A stretch of DNA of 64,000 nt from Microbispora corallina. GTDB taxonomy: Bacteria; Actinomycetota; Actinomycetes; Streptosporangiales; Streptosporangiaceae. The translations under genes were made by a program, and so were the position numbers. The DNA lies in NCBI RefSeq assembly GCF_016863035.1, contig NZ_BOOC01000003.1:372001-436000 (forward strand). Direction: 5' to 3'. Each line of letters begins with the position of its first letter. Position 1 is the stretch's first letter. The notes beneath the pieces are model-generated. The model did not search any database. It had not been told where the DNA came from and saw only the letters and a list, made by a program, of their open reading frames with translations. Of the stretch, positions 1,786 to 8,811 are shown piece by piece.

Positions 1786-2997
1786 GTGCCTGACACCTGC
1801 GATGTCGCGATCATCGGCGGGGGCGTGGTCGGATGCGCCGTCGCGCATCGGCTCGCCGCGGACGGTCGCAGCGTCGTGCTCGTCGAGGGCGGCCCGCGGC
1901 TCGGCCTCGGCGCCTCCGACGCCGCGATGGGCGGCATCACCCCGCAGTCGGAGCCGTCCTGCCTCGGCCCGCTCGGCGCGGTGGCCGGGCGGAGCCGCGA
2001 GCTCTATCCGGCGTGGCTGGACGAGCTCGCCGCGGCGTCCGGGGTCGTCGTCCCCCTGCTCGACGGCGGTGACATCCAGGTGGCGCTCGACGAGGCCGAG
2101 ATGGAACGCCTGGAGACCGAGGTCCTCCCTGTCTGGATGAACTCGCCGTTCGCCGTCGAGCGCCTCACGGCCGCCGACGCCCGCGGGCTGGAGCCGCTGC
2201 TGAGCGAGTCGGTCGCCGGCGGGTTCCTGCTGCCCGACGAGCTCGCCCTCGACCCCCGCGATCTGCTGGCCGCGCTGGCCGCCACACTCGAGGCGAACCC
2301 CGCCGTCCGCGTGCTGACCGGCGTCAGGGCCACGGCCGTGACGTCCGGTCCCCGGGGCGCCCGCGCCTACCTCGACAGCGGCGACCGCGTGTCGGCCGGG
2401 TTCGTCGTCGTCGCGGCGGGCCTGCTGAGCCGGGAGCTCCTCCCCGGCCTCCGTGACCACCTGCTGCCCATCAAGGGCATGGCCTACGACGCCCGCGTGC
2501 CGGAGGCGAGGTCGTACCCGCTGCGCCACCACGTGTACGCGGAGTTCTCGGAGGACGGGGTCGAGCACAGTCCCTACCTCGTCCCCCGGCATGACGGCCG
2601 GGTCGCGATCGGCGTCACGTACGAGATCGGAGCGGACGACCTGACGGTGACCGGCGCCGGGCTCGCGGAGATCAGGCGCGGTCTCGAGGCCCTCATGCCG
2701 GCGGCCGTCTCCTGGCCGGTGGAACGCCGCTGGGCGGGGCTGCGGCCCGCCACGACCGACCGCATACCGATCATCGGCCCGGTGGACGCCAACGGGTACG
2801 TGCTCGCCGCCACCGGCCACGGAGGGCTCGGCATCACCCTCGCCCCCGTCACGGCCGACCTGGTCGCGGCACTCGTCCGCGGAGGCGTCGACGCCGGCGC
2901 GCGCGAGCTACTGCGGATCTGCCGACCCGACCGGCCTCTCGCCCCCTGGGGGCCGGAAGGCGGGCCCGTGGACGGGGAGAGGTCCGCGGCCTCCTGA
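1786..2997 (+). CDS. FAD-dependent oxidoreductase, DAO / glycine oxidase (ThiO)-like
   Basis: 403 aa with GTG start at 1786 and GGGAG six bases upstream. The N-terminus has an FAD Rossmann motif (DVAIIGGGVVGCAVAHRLA, about residues 4-22). The C-terminus has the DAO-family FAD segment GLRPATTDRIPIIGP followed by GHGGLGITLAP. This is the domain order of glycine oxidase and sarcosine oxidase-like amine oxidases, which oxidise secondary amines or amino acids with release of H2O2. No thi genes are nearby, so ThiO function in thiamine synthesis is not supported. It diverges from the AurF-like/SDR pair. Confidence 0.85.
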   Translation: MPDTCDVAIIGGGVVGCAVAHRLAADGRSVVLVEGGPRLGLGASDAAMGGITPQSEPSCLGPLGAVAGRSRELYPAWLDELAAASGVVVPLLDGGDIQVALDEAEMERLETEVLPVWMNSPFAVERLTAADARGLEPLLSESVAGGFLLPDELALDPRDLLAALAATLEANPAVRVLTGVRATAVTSGPRGARAYLDSGDRVSAGFVVVAAGLLSRELLPGLRDHLLPIKGMAYDARVPEARSYPLRHHVYAEFSEDGVEHSPYLVPRHDGRVAIGVTYEIGADDLTVTGAGLAEIRRGLEALMPAAVSWPVERRWAGLRPATTDRIPIIGPVDANGYVLAATGHGGLGITLAPVTADLVAALVRGGVDAGARELLRICRPDRPLAPWGPEGGPVDGERSAAS

Positions 2998-3032
2998 CAC
3001 CGTCGCCGGCGAGGACGGGCGTACGGGGAGCG

Positions 3033-3965
3033 TCACCGCCGCCTCCGTCCGGCTTCGGCCGTGACGCTGAGAAGGGCCAGGGTGTTGACCGTTACCTGGT
3101 CGCGCACGCGGTCCACAAGAGACTGCCACTGGCGGCTGAAGCCGGGACGCCGGTCGAGGCTCTCCCAGTAGGGCGCCATCGCGTCGCCGAGCCGCGCCGC
3201 GGGCATCCACAGGTGCAGGAGGTGGTCGACCGCGGGGGCCAGCCTTGCGGCCGCCTCCGGGCCCGGCACGGCGCCGATCCGCGCCCGTTCCAGCAGGACC
3301 AGGAGCGTGGTGAGCAGCCAGTCGTGCAGCGCGAGGTCCTCGCAGAGGTCGGCCACGGCCGGGGTGAACGCCCCGTCGTGCACGACCAGGACCGACCGTG
3401 TCCGGTCGCTCCGCAGGACGAAGCGGATGGCCGGTTCGCCGCTCTCCGCCACCCAGCGCAGGCGGGTACGGGGGACCTTGAAGGGGGCCCGGCGGTCCAG
3501 CAGCGGGGACGACTGGGCCAGGTCGAGGAAGCGGCCGCTGATCGCGCCGAGGTCGAGGCAGCCGGGCGGCGGGTCGTCGGCGAACCCGTCGGCCAGGTCC
3601 CGCGCCTTCGCCTTGCCCAGCACCTCCACGACCCCCGGCCGGGCCAGGTAGTGCGACCAGGGCAGCCGCCGGTCGGCCTCCGCGCGCGTCAGCCGGACGT
3701 ACGACGAGCCCTGGGCGACCCGTCCGCCCGTGATCGCGCACCGGGACAGGACCGTGCCGACGCCCCTGACGCGGGACTGCGTGGCGGACGGCAGCCGGCA
3801 GTCCACCCCGGTCAGCCGGTCCGGGGAGACGGCGTGCACGATCGGCCGCCGGGAGACCCGCACGGTCTCGCCCGCCGTCAGCGCGAGCACCTGCCGGCAG
3901 GCGGACTCCTCGATCTCCCCCGAGTTCTGCAGCAACCCCGTGTGCACTTCCCCCATGACCGGCAT
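3033..3965 (-). CDS. SCO2521-family protein
   Basis: 310 aa, last gene of the 8615-3033 operon. It matches what I recall of the actinobacterial family named after S. coelicolor SCO2521: an early GEVHTGLLQNS segment, a central PWSHYLARPGVVE, and LCEDLALHDWLLTTLL near residue 220. No enzymatic motif is visible; it is predicted soluble and rich in Arg and Leu. ATG 3965 is chosen because GGGGAG lies about 11 nt upstream; ATG 3956 (MGEVHTG) is the alternative. It starts 23 bp after the SCO2522-like stop, the only real gap in the operon. Confidence 0.75.
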   Translation of the reverse strand: MPVMGEVHTGLLQNSGEIEESACRQVLALTAGETVRVSRRPIVHAVSPDRLTGVDCRLPSATQSRVRGVGTVLSRCAITGGRVAQGSSYVRLTRAEADRRLPWSHYLARPGVVEVLGKAKARDLADGFADDPPPGCLDLGAISGRFLDLAQSSPLLDRRAPFKVPRTRLRWVAESGEPAIRFVLRSDRTRSVLVVHDGAFTPAVADLCEDLALHDWLLTTLLVLLERARIGAVPGPEAAARLAPAVDHLLHLWMPAARLGDAMAPYWESLDRRPGFSRQWQSLVDRVRDQVTVNTLALLSVTAEAGRRRR

Positions 3966-3988
3966 CGGCGGTGCGGCTCCCCGTCTGA

Positions 3989-4945
3989 TCAGCAGAACAC
4001 GTACGAGACGCGGTCGACGAGCTCGTCCTCGAGCCGGACGCCCTCGCTCTCGCTCCGCTCGGCGACCTGCCGCAGGACCTCGGCGTCCACCGCCACCTGG
4101 CCGAGGATGGTCCGTACGGCCAGCTCGACGGGCAGGAACCGGGGCGAGAGAACCGACAGCGTCGTGTACGCGCTGAACGGAGGGGCTTGAGCGTTCACCT
4201 GGACGACGGCGGGCAGGGCGTCCCAGCCCTTCGGCCACGTGTCCGGGGCGGGCACGGGCAGCAGGGGGAGGCGGCCGTCGCTGCGCAGCATCCCGAGCCG
4301 CAGGAGCTGCCAGACCGCGGCCAGGAAGGGGCACGACCACGTGCGCCCCGGACCGTCCTCGTCCCACAGCTCCACGTCGACGAAGATCGAGTGGCCGCGC
4401 TTGGCGTTCTGGCTGGGCGGCGCCCACCGCTGGGCCCTCCCCATCGCCTGCACGGTGCCGTTGCCGGGGGAGCGGGCGCCGTTGCACAGCCACCCCGTCT
4501 CCTGCACCGGCGGCCGCGAGCCGGTGGTCTCCGGCGGGGGATCGGCGACGAGCCGGTCCTCCACCAGCCGGGCCGGCTCCACGTCGTCGGCCTGCGCGCA
4601 GGCCGACTCCCGGGCCAGGTAGTCGACGGACAGGCCCTCCTCGGCCGCCGTGCCGAGGATCATCGGCACCAGCTCGGCGGGGCTGCTGGACCGGCTGAAG
4701 TAGTCGTCCACGAGGAAGCACGTGCTGACCCTGGCCCGGCCCCCGGGCACCCGCTCCTGCCACATCGACCGCACGGTCCGCGCCCAGGGGGCGACGCGGC
4801 GGAACTGCTCGCGCAGCCGTTCCGGGCCGGCCTCGACGTCCTCCATGTAGAGATGGCCGAGCTCGACGGACACGTGGGAGAGGGGGGCGGAGGCGATCCT
4901 GCGCTCCGCGGCCACCTCCCCGAAGGCCGCGTTCACCGACGTCAC
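3989..4945 (-). CDS. SCO2522-family protein
   Basis: 318 aa, GTG at 4945 overlapping the preceding stop by 4 bp (GTGA). Family-like segments are PLSHVSVELGHLYMED near residue 20, RVSTCFLVDDYF near 70, and WSCPFLAAVWQLLRLG near 200. Conserved Trp, Cys and Asp clusters suggest an enzyme or binding protein, but I recognise no catalytic signature. Translational coupling to the P-loop protein suggests the two act together at fixed stoichiometry. No signal peptide or membrane helix. Confidence 0.75.
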   Translation of the reverse strand: MTSVNAAFGEVAAERRIASAPLSHVSVELGHLYMEDVEAGPERLREQFRRVAPWARTVRSMWQERVPGGRARVSTCFLVDDYFSRSSSPAELVPMILGTAAEEGLSVDYLARESACAQADDVEPARLVEDRLVADPPPETTGSRPPVQETGWLCNGARSPGNGTVQAMGRAQRWAPPSQNAKRGHSIFVDVELWDEDGPGRTWSCPFLAAVWQLLRLGMLRSDGRLPLLPVPAPDTWPKGWDALPAVVQVNAQAPPFSAYTTLSVLSPRFLPVELAVRTILGQVAVDAEVLRQVAERSESEGVRLEDELVDRVSYVFC

Positions 4946-5856
4946 AGGCCCTCCCACGCGCTGTCGTCCACGATCTTCCTCGCCAGGTCGTCGAACGCCG
5001 CCGCCGTCTCCGCGTTCGCGATCTTGCTGGCCAGCACGTCCTCGTCGGAGATGAGCTGCTCGCGCCACTGCAGGACGGGGTCGAGCGGGATCCTGCCGAG
5101 CATCGCCGTACGGCCGACTCCGTGGCGGCGGGCGAGCTCGCGCAGCTCGTCGTCGCAGGTGCTCAGCCAGGCCCGCTGCTCGTCGCGCAGGCCGGCCAGC
5201 TCCGCCGCGCCGGGCTCCAGGACGGCGGTCCGCACGAACCGGATGCGGTCACGCAGCTCGTCCGGGTCGTGCCCGAACCGCGCCGCCACGTCGAGCAGCC
5301 CGTCGGCCCCGGTCACCAGGCCGTCGGCGGCGATGATGTGCTGGCGCGTCCAGCGGTGGAACACCAGCCAGCGGAACGGGACGTGGGCCAGCCGCGCGGT
5401 GGCCTGCAGGACCAACTCCGCGGTGAACGACCGGCCGGCGCTGAGGTCGACCACGCACAGGTCGAACTCCTCGTCGAGGCGCCCGAACAGCTGCGCGCAG
5501 CGCCGGACCACCTCCTCGTCCACAGAGGACAGTTCGCCGCCGCCCTCGCTGCCGGGGAGCAGGACGAGCCTGCCCGAGCCGGGCGGCCTGGCGCGCAGCG
5601 CCTCGCGGTCGGACTCGGCCCACACGTCGAGCCGCAGCGGCTCCGCCCGGTAGCCGCGCAGGTACTCGTGCAGGCCGCCCTCCCTGGCCCCCCGGGCCGC
5701 GGCGCCGATGCCGAAGATGGCCCCCGCCGTGGGGGAGCCGAGGTCGTAATCGAGATAGCAGGCGTCGTTACCCTGCAGCGCGTGGCGGTACACGACGTTC
5801 ATCGCGGTGACCGACCGGCCGGTCCCGCCCTTGTCGGAGATCGCGAAGACCAGCAC
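4942..5856 (-). CDS. SCO2523-family variant P-loop (MinD/ParA-like) protein
   Basis: 304 aa, GTG at 5856 directly abutting the TAG of the upstream gene. The N-terminus is a deviant Walker A of the MinD/ParA/SIMIBI type: DKGGTGRS at residues 8-15. The signature lysine (K9) is kept but the usual P-loop lysine is arginine (R14). YLDYDLGSPTAGAIFG near residue 40 corresponds to switch I, and LCVVDLSAG near residue 150 to Walker B. The Arg substitution suggests altered or absent ATP hydrolysis. MinD/ParA relatives position protein cargo or regulate membrane recruitment; here the partners are probably the SCO2521/2522/2524-like proteins and the membrane protein at the head of the operon. Confidence 0.8.
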   Translation of the reverse strand: MLVFAISDKGGTGRSVTAMNVVYRHALQGNDACYLDYDLGSPTAGAIFGIGAAARGAREGGLHEYLRGYRAEPLRLDVWAESDREALRARPPGSGRLVLLPGSEGGGELSSVDEEVVRRCAQLFGRLDEEFDLCVVDLSAGRSFTAELVLQATARLAHVPFRWLVFHRWTRQHIIAADGLVTGADGLLDVAARFGHDPDELRDRIRFVRTAVLEPGAAELAGLRDEQRAWLSTCDDELRELARRHGVGRTAMLGRIPLDPVLQWREQLISDEDVLASKIANAETAAAFDDLARKIVDDSAWEGL

Positions 5857-7692
5857 CTACATCGCCTCCGTGGCGCTGTCGCGTGCGGCGGCCAGGCGTT
5901 CGAGGTCGAGCAGGGCGTCCTGGATCAGAGCCAGCGCGGTCGCCGGGCGGTCGCCGAGGATCGCCCGGGCCCGCTGCAGGGCGGCCTGGACGCCGCGCAG
6001 CTTCGGCTGGACCGTCTGGCCGGCCACCAGCGGCCGGGTGACGAGCTCCCGGTCGAGCAGGTGCTCGGCCTCGCCCAGCATCTGCATGGCCAGGTCGACG
6101 AGCTCCGGGCTGCTCAGCGGCGTCTCCGCCCCGGCGTACGCCGCGGAGACCAGGATCTCCACGACGCGCTCGGTCATGTACCAGGACGGCTCCTCGTGGC
6201 GCGCCTCGACGTCGGGGAACACGTTGCCGGGCTGGTCCCACAGGCCGGCGCTCGGACCGTCGATGAAGCGGCGTCGCGAGATGTGCCGCCAGACGTGGTC
6301 GGCCAGGGTGAGCAGCCGCTCCCGCGTCCCGGTGTTCCGGGCGATCGAAGCGGCCCAGATCGTGCGTTTCAGGAGCTTGACGGCGAAGTCGGAGACGATC
6401 CACACCAGATCGGGACCCAGCTCCTCGCCGCCGAGCAGCCGCACCGGGAGGCCGGGGGAGTGCAGGAGGACGGACGGGTCGCCGGGGATCGCCCTGCGGG
6501 TGATGCGCGCCCGCACGGCGAGCTCCTCCAGCACGCCCGCCACCCGGTCGAGGTCCACGTCCGAGGAGCGATTGCTCACCAGGCTCTGGATCACCATCGC
6601 GCTGACACCCAGGCTGAAGTAGTCCGATTCCCGCTCATCCGTCGTCTGCCACGGGATGTCCTCAAGGGGCCAGGCGCCCCGGCCGGACATGGCGACCGTG
6701 CGCCAGTAGTGCTGGGTGAGGTCCCAGCGCCGCTGGATCGCCTGGGCGAGCGTGAGCTGCTCGTCGTCCAGCAGGCCGAGGACGCGGGTGCGCTCGGAGA
6801 ACAGGTCGGCGATGCCGACGAGGGCGTTCACGGTGAAGTAAAGGAGCGGGACGTCGGCCGCCACGCCCTTCGGCTGGGGGCCGATCGGGAGCGGCGTCGC
6901 GACGTCGGGGGCGTCCTTCACGATGCCCCACGTCCATCCGCACTCGAACAGGAGATTGTCGTTGTCGAGGTCGACCTGGCTGCCCGAGCCGATCGTGAGG
7001 TCGCGCAGCCTCGCACGCACCGGCCGCAGAGCCCTCCGCAGCTCGTCGAGGACCCGCCGGTCCGGGGCGCCGGTCTGGTTGACCTGGCGCAGGAGGGTCA
7101 GGCCCTGTGGGGAGCCGGGATCGAACGCGTTGACCGTGAAGCTGCGCAGCAGGCCGACCATGGCCGCCGACAGCCGGCGGCTCGCCAGGTCCTCCAGCTC
7201 GCGGATCTCCCGGCGGATCGACTCCCGCCTGACGCTCTGCCGGAACACCTTGAGGAAGCCGAGCGTGCCGAGCATGAGCGTGACCGACATCGAGAACGAG
7301 TCCACGACGTCGAGCCGGAGCTGCTCGGCGGTGGGCGTCACGTCCTCGTCCGCCGTGCGGAAGTAGCCGCCACCGGAGAAGACGGGCCGCCCGTCCTCGG
7401 CGGTGTACGTGCGCAGGTAGTCGCCGATGACCTTCAGCAGCAGCTTGGGGATCTCCACGGAGTCGCCCAGGCGCGCCAGCGCGGCCAGCACGTCGTCGGC
7501 CGTCTCGTCGGGCGTGTCCAGCCGGAAGCCCGACAGCTCGGAGGCCGGATACATGAAGCACAGGAGCTGCTCGGCGTCGGAGATGGAGTTGGACCCGTCG
7601 CGTCCTCCCCAGCTCCACGAGCCGTCGCGGCAGGAGACGCGGGCGGCCGCCTCCCAGAGCTCGAGAAGCTGCTGGCGGGGCTGCAGCCTCAC
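5857..7692 (-). CDS. SCO2524-family protein
   Basis: 611 aa, largest gene of the operon. GTG at 7692 overlaps the upstream TGA by 4 bp. The start gives VRLQPRQQLLELWEAAARVS; upstream sequence in the same frame is antisense or out-of-frame to the PLD-like gene. Recognisable segments are DAEQLLCFMYPASEL near residue 45 and several Trp/Arg-rich helical stretches. It is probably an all-helical protein (terpene-synthase or glycan-toroid-like folds cannot be excluded), but I see no DDxxD or other catalytic signature. It is cytoplasmic, without membrane helices. Confidence 0.75.
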   Translation of the reverse strand: MRLQPRQQLLELWEAAARVSCRDGSWSWGGRDGSNSISDAEQLLCFMYPASELSGFRLDTPDETADDVLAALARLGDSVEIPKLLLKVIGDYLRTYTAEDGRPVFSGGGYFRTADEDVTPTAEQLRLDVVDSFSMSVTLMLGTLGFLKVFRQSVRRESIRREIRELEDLASRRLSAAMVGLLRSFTVNAFDPGSPQGLTLLRQVNQTGAPDRRVLDELRRALRPVRARLRDLTIGSGSQVDLDNDNLLFECGWTWGIVKDAPDVATPLPIGPQPKGVAADVPLLYFTVNALVGIADLFSERTRVLGLLDDEQLTLAQAIQRRWDLTQHYWRTVAMSGRGAWPLEDIPWQTTDERESDYFSLGVSAMVIQSLVSNRSSDVDLDRVAGVLEELAVRARITRRAIPGDPSVLLHSPGLPVRLLGGEELGPDLVWIVSDFAVKLLKRTIWAASIARNTGTRERLLTLADHVWRHISRRRFIDGPSAGLWDQPGNVFPDVEARHEEPSWYMTERVVEILVSAAYAGAETPLSSPELVDLAMQMLGEAEHLLDRELVTRPLVAGQTVQPKLRGVQAALQRARAILGDRPATALALIQDALLDLERLAAARDSATEAM

Positions 7693-8615
7693 GGCGTTCC
7701 CTGCCTCCCCACGGGATGGGTGTTCACCGTCAGCTCCAGCAGCTCCTCCGGCTCGTCGAAGGGGACCGACCGGTTCTCCAGGTCGCGCCACATCTGCATG
7801 AACACCTCGAGGAAGTCGGCCTTCGCGTCGAGGACGATCAGCTCTCCCAGGAGCTGGAGGTTCCGGTGCCGGTCGAAGTGCTGCAGGGAGAGGACCAGGG
7901 ACCGACCGTCGACGATGATGAACTTGTAGGGGTACCGCTGCGCGGCGACCCTGATGGACACCATGGTCGGGTCGTCGAGCTCCTGCCGCAGCCGCAGCAT
8001 GGCGAGATAGTGGTCCAGGGCCTCGGTGCGCCCGGCGGAGGCGAACGGCTTGACGGTGGGGCCGTCGCCTCGGCCCGCCTCGTTCACCTCCACCTGGCAG
8101 ATCCGCCGGTAGGCGATGGACGGCATGCTCTGGCGGACGTGCCGGAGCACCGCCTCGTGATGCTTGCGCATGTGCTCCCGGTTGACGCCGCTGTCCGGCC
8201 ACTCCCCGTCCCTGGAGATGAAGTCGAGAACGTGGATGCTCTTCCGCGCCCCGACCAAAAGCTGTGTCAGGGGGTCGGCTTCGAGGTTCGTGAATTTCCT
8301 GATCTTGTCGATGTGCTGGAGTTCGACGCGCATCCCCGATTGGCGGATCAGGTCCGACATCTGGCGTTCGACGGCCTTCAACGCCTGCTCGCGGCTGCCC
8401 AGCATGGCGACCGCGGCGAGGGTGACGAGGCTGAGGAGTCCCAGGGCGGTCAGCGCGATGCGGACGGGACTGTCCAGAAGTCCCTGAACCACGGCGCCGA
8501 GGACCGCTCCCGCGACCGCGCTCGCTATCGCGAGCAGAGTACGGCTCAGTGCACCGGAATTTGTCAATATGCGCTCTCGGATATCGAAATCAGTTATTGG
8601 CTTAAGATCATACAT
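7689..8615 (-). CDS. Membrane protein with degenerate phospholipase D-like domain
   Basis: 308 aa, first gene of the operon. Two adjacent hydrophobic helices at about residues 23-45 and 51-71 form an N-terminal hairpin anchor, followed by a cytoplasmic domain. Near residue 250, PYKFIIVDG resembles the PLD HxKx4D motif (K-x4-D present) but the histidine position is proline; LLVGARKSIHVLDFIS near residue 122 fits the start of a PLD-like fold. Catalysis is therefore doubtful and a sensing or scaffolding role is possible. In S. coelicolor, as I recall it, the fifth gene of this locus is a methyltransferase (SCO2525), so this gene would be a local substitution. The coding start is AT-rich relative to the rest. 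Confidence 0.65.
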   Translation of the reverse strand: MYDLKPITDFDIRERILTNSGALSRTLLAIASAVAGAVLGAVVQGLLDSPVRIALTALGLLSLVTLAAVAMLGSREQALKAVERQMSDLIRQSGMRVELQHIDKIRKFTNLEADPLTQLLVGARKSIHVLDFISRDGEWPDSGVNREHMRKHHEAVLRHVRQSMPSIAYRRICQVEVNEAGRGDGPTVKPFASAGRTEALDHYLAMLRLRQELDDPTMVSIRVAAQRYPYKFIIVDGRSLVLSLQHFDRHRNLQLLGELIVLDAKADFLEVFMQMWRDLENRSVPFDEPEELLELTVNTHPVGRQGTP

Positions 8616-8700
8616 CGGCTGCCGATTGGCATGAAGGGCGAATCATTGCGCTTGTAGGGGTGGACCCCAAGATGTATTTCGGTCTAGCCGCAACGATGGG

Positions 8701-8721
8701 TATCGCATAAAATGAGCGATA
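8701..8721. promoter_or_regulatory. Inverted repeat in divergent intergenic region
   Basis: TATCGC at 8701-8706 and its complement GCGATA at 8716-8721 flank an AT-rich 9-nt spacer. They lie between the five-gene operon (start 8615) and the dehydrogenase at 8812, so this is a candidate operator or promoter element for one or both. The arms are short (6 bp). Confidence 0.35.
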
Positions 8722-8811
8722 TGCCTACACTTGAGACGGAAGTTGCCCGCGCTGCATCGTTGAGGAGCGGAGGCGGCCCTGGTCTCTGAACGGGGGATCG
8801 GCGGCGACCGC

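Follow-up and report, generated by a model that had tools for sequence, protein, structure and literature searches.

The closest described relatives of the locus examined here are five protein families named after SCO2521 to SCO2525 and modelled in NCBIfam as NF040564-NF040568, among which the SCO2523 family bears the name 'variant P-loop protein'. Literature searches, with most subscription journals outside their coverage, found no study of the mechanism of the SCO2521-2524 system, and to our knowledge no function is assigned to any of its core proteins. We analysed a 64,000-nucleotide stretch of Microbispora corallina (contig NZ_BOOC01000003.1, positions 372,001 to 436,000; hereafter, the window), which encodes four of the five families in the conserved order SCO2524-SCO2523-SCO2522-SCO2521. 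The four-gene set itself is known; the variant found here is that its tail partner, a gene for a two-transmembrane (2TM) protein with a DUF6879 region, is missing and that a different membrane-protein gene, P0001, stands at the other end.

These genes are tightly packed on the minus strand. P0001 (308 aa, 7689..8615), which belongs to a rare family with two N-terminal hydrophobic segments, is the first gene of the operon and overlaps the SCO2524 family gene (611 aa, 5857..7692) by 4 bp; it is followed by SCO2523 (P0003; 304 aa, 4942..5856), a MinD/ParA/Mrp-like variant P-loop protein with the motif KGGTGRS, then by SCO2522 (318 aa, 3989..4945) and SCO2521 (310 aa, 3033..3965), the successive junctions being -4, 0, -4 and +23 bp. 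All four downstream proteins score far above the NCBIfam cut-offs: 931 bits for SCO2524 (NF040567, cut-off 300), 496 for SCO2523 (NF040564, 200), 455 for SCO2522 (NF040566, 200) and 420 for SCO2521 (NF040565, 150). An initial annotation, made from the letters alone, had reported this packing and named these families; coordinates, spacings and assignments all agree with it, and its claim of synteny stands, as gene order is conserved and the families are matched across actinomycetes. None of the five operon proteins exceeded a Pfam cut-off, and PADLOC returned no convincing match for them, SCO2523 alone giving any (best 0.0017, residues 6-46). Upstream of P0001 lies a divergent intergenic region of 196 bp (8616..8811, 60% GC). 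At the tail, a 35-bp gap (2998..3032) sits where relatives carry the 2TM-DUF6879 gene, and beyond it a DAO-type FAD oxidoreductase gene (1786..2997, plus strand), a recurrent partner of the core, runs convergently with SCO2521. The initial annotation had noted neither the missing tail gene nor this partner.

We refer to the 2TM-DUF6879 protein by the working label TMPLD, in which 'PLD' is a guess, not a result. The exchange in this genome is visible in the flanks, for which distances between alignment ends were compared in twelve relatives, nine of them measurable. The dehydrogenase-SCO2524 spacing is 223-397 bp in the nine relatives compared with 1119 bp in the window, where P0001 fills it; the SCO2521-FAD oxidoreductase spacing is 0.96-1.12 kb in the same relatives, filled by TMPLD, compared with 35 bp in the window. 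Between syntenic flanks, then, the head gained roughly 0.7-0.9 kb and the tail lost about 1 kb. A whole-genome search found no TMPLD copy elsewhere, its positive control being nine of nine sampled congeners with one. What is unusual in the window is that the tail gene was lost and P0001 gained, and this corrects how the operon is read. The initial annotation had expected a methyltransferase (SCO2525) at the head and saw P0001 in its stead. No SCO2525 methyltransferase is encoded in the window cluster, and a whole-genome search, which had no positive control, gave no match; neither is there one within 6 kb in 27 TMPLD-bearing clusters of close relatives (Microbispora, Planotetraspora, Microtetraspora, Sphaerimonospora, Sphaerisporangium and Acrocarpospora; in L007 little sequence lies upstream of SCO2524). 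Because these relatives, which lack the methyltransferase, have no P0001 either, we reject the idea that one replaced the other: absence of the methyltransferase is normal for the group, and the gene that went missing is the tail partner.

That TMPLD gives way to a different membrane-type protein is a recurring pattern. We first scanned genome contigs with SCO2523 and kept the best 80 loci of 310 relatives, and later added 15 extra regions and then 42 loci from the class and two other families, four of which were already in the first scan. The resulting set of 122 clusters comprises the window, 79 first-scan loci, L096, L098, L104, L106 and 38 of the 42; it omits L005 (cut by a contig end, its continuation L110 having TMPLD), repeat genome copies, stretches lacking SCO2523, and L108 (G116), where TMPLD is accompanied by a WD40 protein similar to that of L107. 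TMPLD is present in 100 clusters and absent from 22, and is therefore a usual component rather than a defining one. Another candidate partner occurs in 17 of these 22: a NACHT/STAND-type protein in nine, a second membrane family in five, a third in two and P0001 in one, the window, leaving five with none recognised.

The NACHT/STAND-type proteins, all within three genes of the core, are diverse. They include a NACHT-FGE protein in L018, DUF4062-NACHT-HEAT proteins in L036-L040 (only L036 was scanned against Pfam; the others cluster with it), an NA-iREase3-NACHT protein accompanied by a WD40 protein in L043, and a DUF4062-NACHT protein in L063, which is cut by the contig; the NACHT matches in L036 and L043 fall just under the gathering score. 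At L096, a gene with matches to NNH7 (a NACHT N-terminal helical domain) and AAA, for which the NACHT model itself is unlisted, stops 2 bp short of where SCO2524 is predicted to begin, in a core reduced to SCO2524 and SCO2523. The second membrane family (L075, L122, L124, L130 and L152) consists of proteins of 247-294 aa whose C-terminal part has hydrophobic segments (two in four members, a single one in L075) and which share an invariant YLNP, followed by GxGD in L075, L122 and L130. By eye this perhaps resembles a 2TM channel pore; Pfam, with four of the five scanned, gave one chance-level match only, and PADLOC, with all five, was silent. The third family, also 2TM, is found in L046 and L058. 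Neither family occurs in any of the 100 TMPLD clusters, compared with 5/22 and 2/22 of those without it, and hydrophobic segments are predicted in all 30 TMPLD proteins tallied, in all five and both members of the second and third families, and in P0001.

Conflict-type neighbours are also unevenly distributed. A motif scan for a P-loop followed by hhhDGxDE, covering neighbours of at least 400 aa within three genes (40 and 181 genes) and known to miss L018, was positive at 8 of the 22 TMPLD-less loci and at none of the 100 with TMPLD. Pfam identified conflict-type neighbours in at least four of the TMPLD clusters, among the 25 commonest families listed for 39 representatives of 92 genes of at least 500 aa, L104 and L106 excluded: WD40-Roc-TIR at L066, WD40-KAP at L081, EAD1-TIR at L114 and, judging from clustering with L114, EAD1-TIR at L076. 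A WD40-Roc-TIR gene lies near L107 as it does near L066, both clusters keeping TMPLD. With this wider set the contrast is 9/22 versus at least 4/100 (p=2e-5), or 5/18 versus at least 4/100 (p=0.004) when L036-L040 are counted once. The occupant of the slot also changed repeatedly on the core tree, which was built by a quick method without bootstrap from SCO2524 and SCO2523 of a hand-thinned set of 82 loci out of the 122. TMPLD presence requires nine changes (at least eight by starred branches), NLR presence at least four, and the second membrane family one, lying on one side of a single branch (98); L096, L150 and L043 sit on long branches and their placement is unsure.

P0001 itself is a distinctive occupant. 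Its hydrophobic segments span residues 27-45 and 53-71, and its GC content is 65% compared with 72-75% in the four core genes. The initial annotation had called it a membrane protein with a degenerate PLD-like domain; the two segments bear out the membrane part, and the PLD-like domain found no confirmation, as a Pfam search up to E 10 gave no PLD match (DUF4231 alone, E=0.33) and a profile search of the PDB gave no support for the fold. Assignment to SLATT/DUF4231 was rejected at 11.8 bits compared with a gathering score of 24.7, and an AlphaFold2 model built from three sequences (predicted local distance difference test, pLDDT, 36) was unusable. We also considered P0001 as a divergent TMPLD. 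Its hhalign score of 18.9 against that family was equalled by 10 of 100 column shuffles and exceeded by the reversed profile and by two of seven decoy families, so no sequence homology is established; P0001 resembles TMPLD in predicted layout only, with N-terminal hydrophobic segments ahead of a soluble part, and relatedness is unsupported. A viral or plasmid origin was likewise set aside, P0001 having no relative on viral contigs and plasmids giving no match to SCO2523 at 1e-20.

In a sample of 200 genomes of the family, P0001 homologues occur in five, all of which also carry SCO2523 (39 of the 200 over cut-off; p=2e-4). They are present in three of the four SCO2523-positive genomes without TMPLD compared with two of the 35 with it (p=0.004). 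At L014:7264-8166, a P0001 homologue with an internal deletion lies beside a TMPLD-bearing cluster, where it may be decaying. Where P0001 homologues are unlinked to the core, a protein of about 196 aa with a similar sequence start adjoins them (L097:10297-10887 in G051 and L099:10464-11057 in G172).

The reading we favour, and to which we give about an even chance, is that SCO2524-2523-2522-2521 form a conserved core working together with a single partner gene, usually TMPLD, that can be exchanged. As part of this reading, and at the same odds, the partner in other lineages is either a NACHT/STAND-type protein or a member of the second or third membrane-protein family. The core may be a cytosolic complex that senses or processes a signal, in which SCO2523, with its non-standard P-loop, would serve as a nucleotide-dependent switch and SCO2522, to judge from its invariant D, E, H and R residues and with no fold match to name a class, might be an enzyme. 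By analogy with modular conflict systems, the slot protein would then act either as the output, at or within the membrane, or as an amplifier resembling NLRs. In the window the usual partner was lost, and P0001, a lower-GC predicted 2TM protein, occupies the operon head. Such a system may serve mycelial actinomycetes as a module for stress or conflict. A more specific form of this idea, which we advance only tentatively, is that the core belongs to an immune-like or programmed-response system in multicellular actinomycetes whose output has been swapped among 2TM-DUF6879, channel-like, other 2TM and NLR (NACHT) proteins, with P0001 as a new, head-placed class of output. The membrane-associated complex proposed in the initial annotation fits the hydrophobic segments of TMPLD, of the alternative partners and of P0001, with the complex itself a matter of inference. 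Among the roles it suggested, defence is possible given the NACHT, TIR, Roc and EAD neighbours, whereas the MinD-like family of SCO2523 is all that we found to suggest positioning or secretion. The repeated replacement of the partner turns a set of uncharacterized families in many filamentous actinomycetes into a testable core-plus-output hypothesis.

Several observations weigh against an exchangeable output. P0001 and TMPLD have no significant sequence relation, a P0001 homologue is unlinked to the core in G051 and G172, and L014 and L026 hold P0001 and TMPLD together. The window core is sister to that of G172 on the core tree (97%), so loss of TMPLD may be shared and the p-value for P0001 counts few events. 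The NACHT link derives from G051 and the initial 80 loci and did not recur in the 38 further loci, whose six TMPLD-less clusters had no NACHT gene: four carry a second-family membrane protein, and the other two have no substitute. The channel-like label was assigned by eye, GxGD is present in three of five members, and Pfam and PADLOC are silent; L060, L067, L098, L125 and L150 have no recognised substitute, their neighbours having been only partly scanned with Pfam; and the slot classes were defined after looking at the data. We also know of no function for any core protein.

In another account there is no functional slot at all: the neighbours would be chance synteny and P0001 a passenger. 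The rarity of P0001 homologues (5/200), their separation from the core in two genomes and the 5 of 22 TMPLD-less clusters without a recognised substitute would suit this account, which we nonetheless regard as the least probable of those considered: P0001 shares a four-base overlap with SCO2524, the second and third membrane families appear only where TMPLD is missing, and the changes on the tree are repeated. Hardly more probable is a small-molecule amine pathway, in which an NNMT/PNMT-type methyltransferase, the DAO-type flavoenzyme, a GNAT protein and SCO2522 would act on one metabolite that the membrane protein senses or moves. One SCO2525-type protein (L032) does match NNMT_PNMT_TEMT (1.1e-13), DAO and GNAT genes lie near 63 and 41 of the 122 clusters in varied positions, and SCO2522 has enzyme-like invariant residues; however, DAO and GNAT largely track taxonomy, each of the three accessory enzymes is missing from many clusters, and SCO2522 has no enzyme fold match.

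A developmental or morphogenetic membrane complex, possible if rather doubtful, deserves more weight. Here the MinD-like protein would set the place or the timing of a step in hyphal growth or in sporulation, and differences at the slot would reflect lineage-specific anchors or regulators. The named carriers in the first scan are largely mycelial actinomycetes, and many close relatives hold the set at a single syntenic place. Published text on the operon (PMC11472566, PMC3017869, PMC6344877) is developmental or regulatory in tenor, which counts against a conflict role and is why we treat morphogenesis as the chief rival: according to those sources, SCO2525 is needed for normal growth or has a part in morphogenesis, the sco2521-sco2526 operon belongs to the HupS regulon, and SCO2525 is under HrdB. 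Yet the phenotype cited is that of SCO2525, which is absent from the window cluster; the occurrence of the system is patchy, SCO2523 being carried by 39 of the 200 family genomes sampled, by 21 of 121 from a second family and by 37 of 394 from the class; and NACHT, TIR and Roc partners are not what a morphogenetic complex would predict.

TMPLD proteins are about 316 aa long, adjoin SCO2521 in most clusters and match DUF6879 over their C-terminal part in 30 of 30 cases (best 3.7e-10), the match in the first member, L002, falling below the gathering score. A simple scale predicts one hydrophobic segment in 15 of the 30 and two in the other 15, in one of which the second is internal. By Streptomycetaceae gene order, TMPLD would correspond to SCO2520. 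A match of one DUF6879 protein of 30 to 'inactive HKD' (E 0.028) was discarded as too faint. SCO2521 is inverted in many Micromonosporaceae, and outside the Microbispora group many clusters start with the SCO2525 methyltransferase. An apparent link of TMPLD with the methyltransferase, which lies no more than 6 kb away in 68 of 100 clusters versus 0 of 14 with NLR or second-family partners (L063 being cut by the contig), was rejected as confounded by taxonomy. Within three genes of the core, DAO and GNAT genes lie in varied positions, DAO in several arrangements, and the two coincide only in L075, a near-exclusivity that is probably taxonomic in part. TMPLD and an SCO2525-type methyltransferase also form pairs at L105:9176-11114 (G016), without the core, and at L049:16176-17832, as an extra pair; they may be a sub-module of their own. 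L102:8683-11919 (G001) encodes an SCO2522-like protein, TMPLD, a methyltransferase and a second SCO2522-like protein; the stretch read there contains neither SCO2523 nor SCO2524. Elsewhere in the window, an AurF-family (P-aminobenzoate N-oxygenase) protein is encoded at 649-1644 on the minus strand (Pfam 5e-95).

The altered P-loop that the initial annotation pointed out, KGGTGRS for KGGxGK[S/T], is present as SDKGGTGRS and is real, and it is a trait of the family rather than of the window: SDKGGTGR (positions 7-14 of SCO2523) is the same in all 31 proteins aligned, and KGGTGR[ST] accounts for 130 of 130 motif matches from predicted gene sets (127 GRS and 3 GRT). That tally used a pattern leaving the K/R site free (SDKGG or GDKGG, any residue, G, any residue, then S or T, in the first 30 residues), and it includes some loci twice and leaves proteins with other motifs or late starts uncounted. 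SCO2522 contains many invariant D, E, H and R residues; its AlphaFold2 model (pLDDT 78, with 156 of 318 residues at 90 or above) has no confident fold match in the PDB (best E 0.2) or BFVD (best E 0.12), which makes it a candidate new fold. SCO2524, with no Pfam domain and no convincing PDB relative by profile (best E 0.15), has one or more hydrophobic segments in 14 of 30 proteins, and the other three core families rarely or never do; SCO2521 has no Pfam match above cut-off and no PDB relative by profile.

Set beside known systems, SCO2523 is closest to the MinD/ParA/Mrp SIMIBI ATPases: its first ~70 residues align with Mrp- and MinD-like PDB chains (best E 1.2e-4) and it retains the first lysine, but all proteins examined have arginine in place of the P-loop lysine, and the remainder is family-specific. 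The NTP-dependent conflict systems described by Kaur et al. 2020 (PMC7159879) include MinD/ParA-like domains predicted to be inactive, varied effectors and hosts with complex development. The NACHT, TIR, Roc and EAD1 genes beside some SCO2521-2524 clusters recall them; the five window proteins, by contrast, have no vWA-MoxR/TRAFAC-type Pfam match, no dedicated search having been made, and the strings 'SCO2' and 'KGGVGR' have no occurrences in the main text of that article. With CBASS-like modular immunity the likeness is at most that of a constant core with an exchangeable membrane effector; no nucleotide cyclase was identified in the SCO2521-2524 system, which is not a member. Compared with the SCO2521-SCO2525 families themselves, the window differs in having no SCO2525 in the cluster, as is normal for its close relatives, no 2TM-DUF6879 tail, which is unusual, and, at the head of the operon, P0001.

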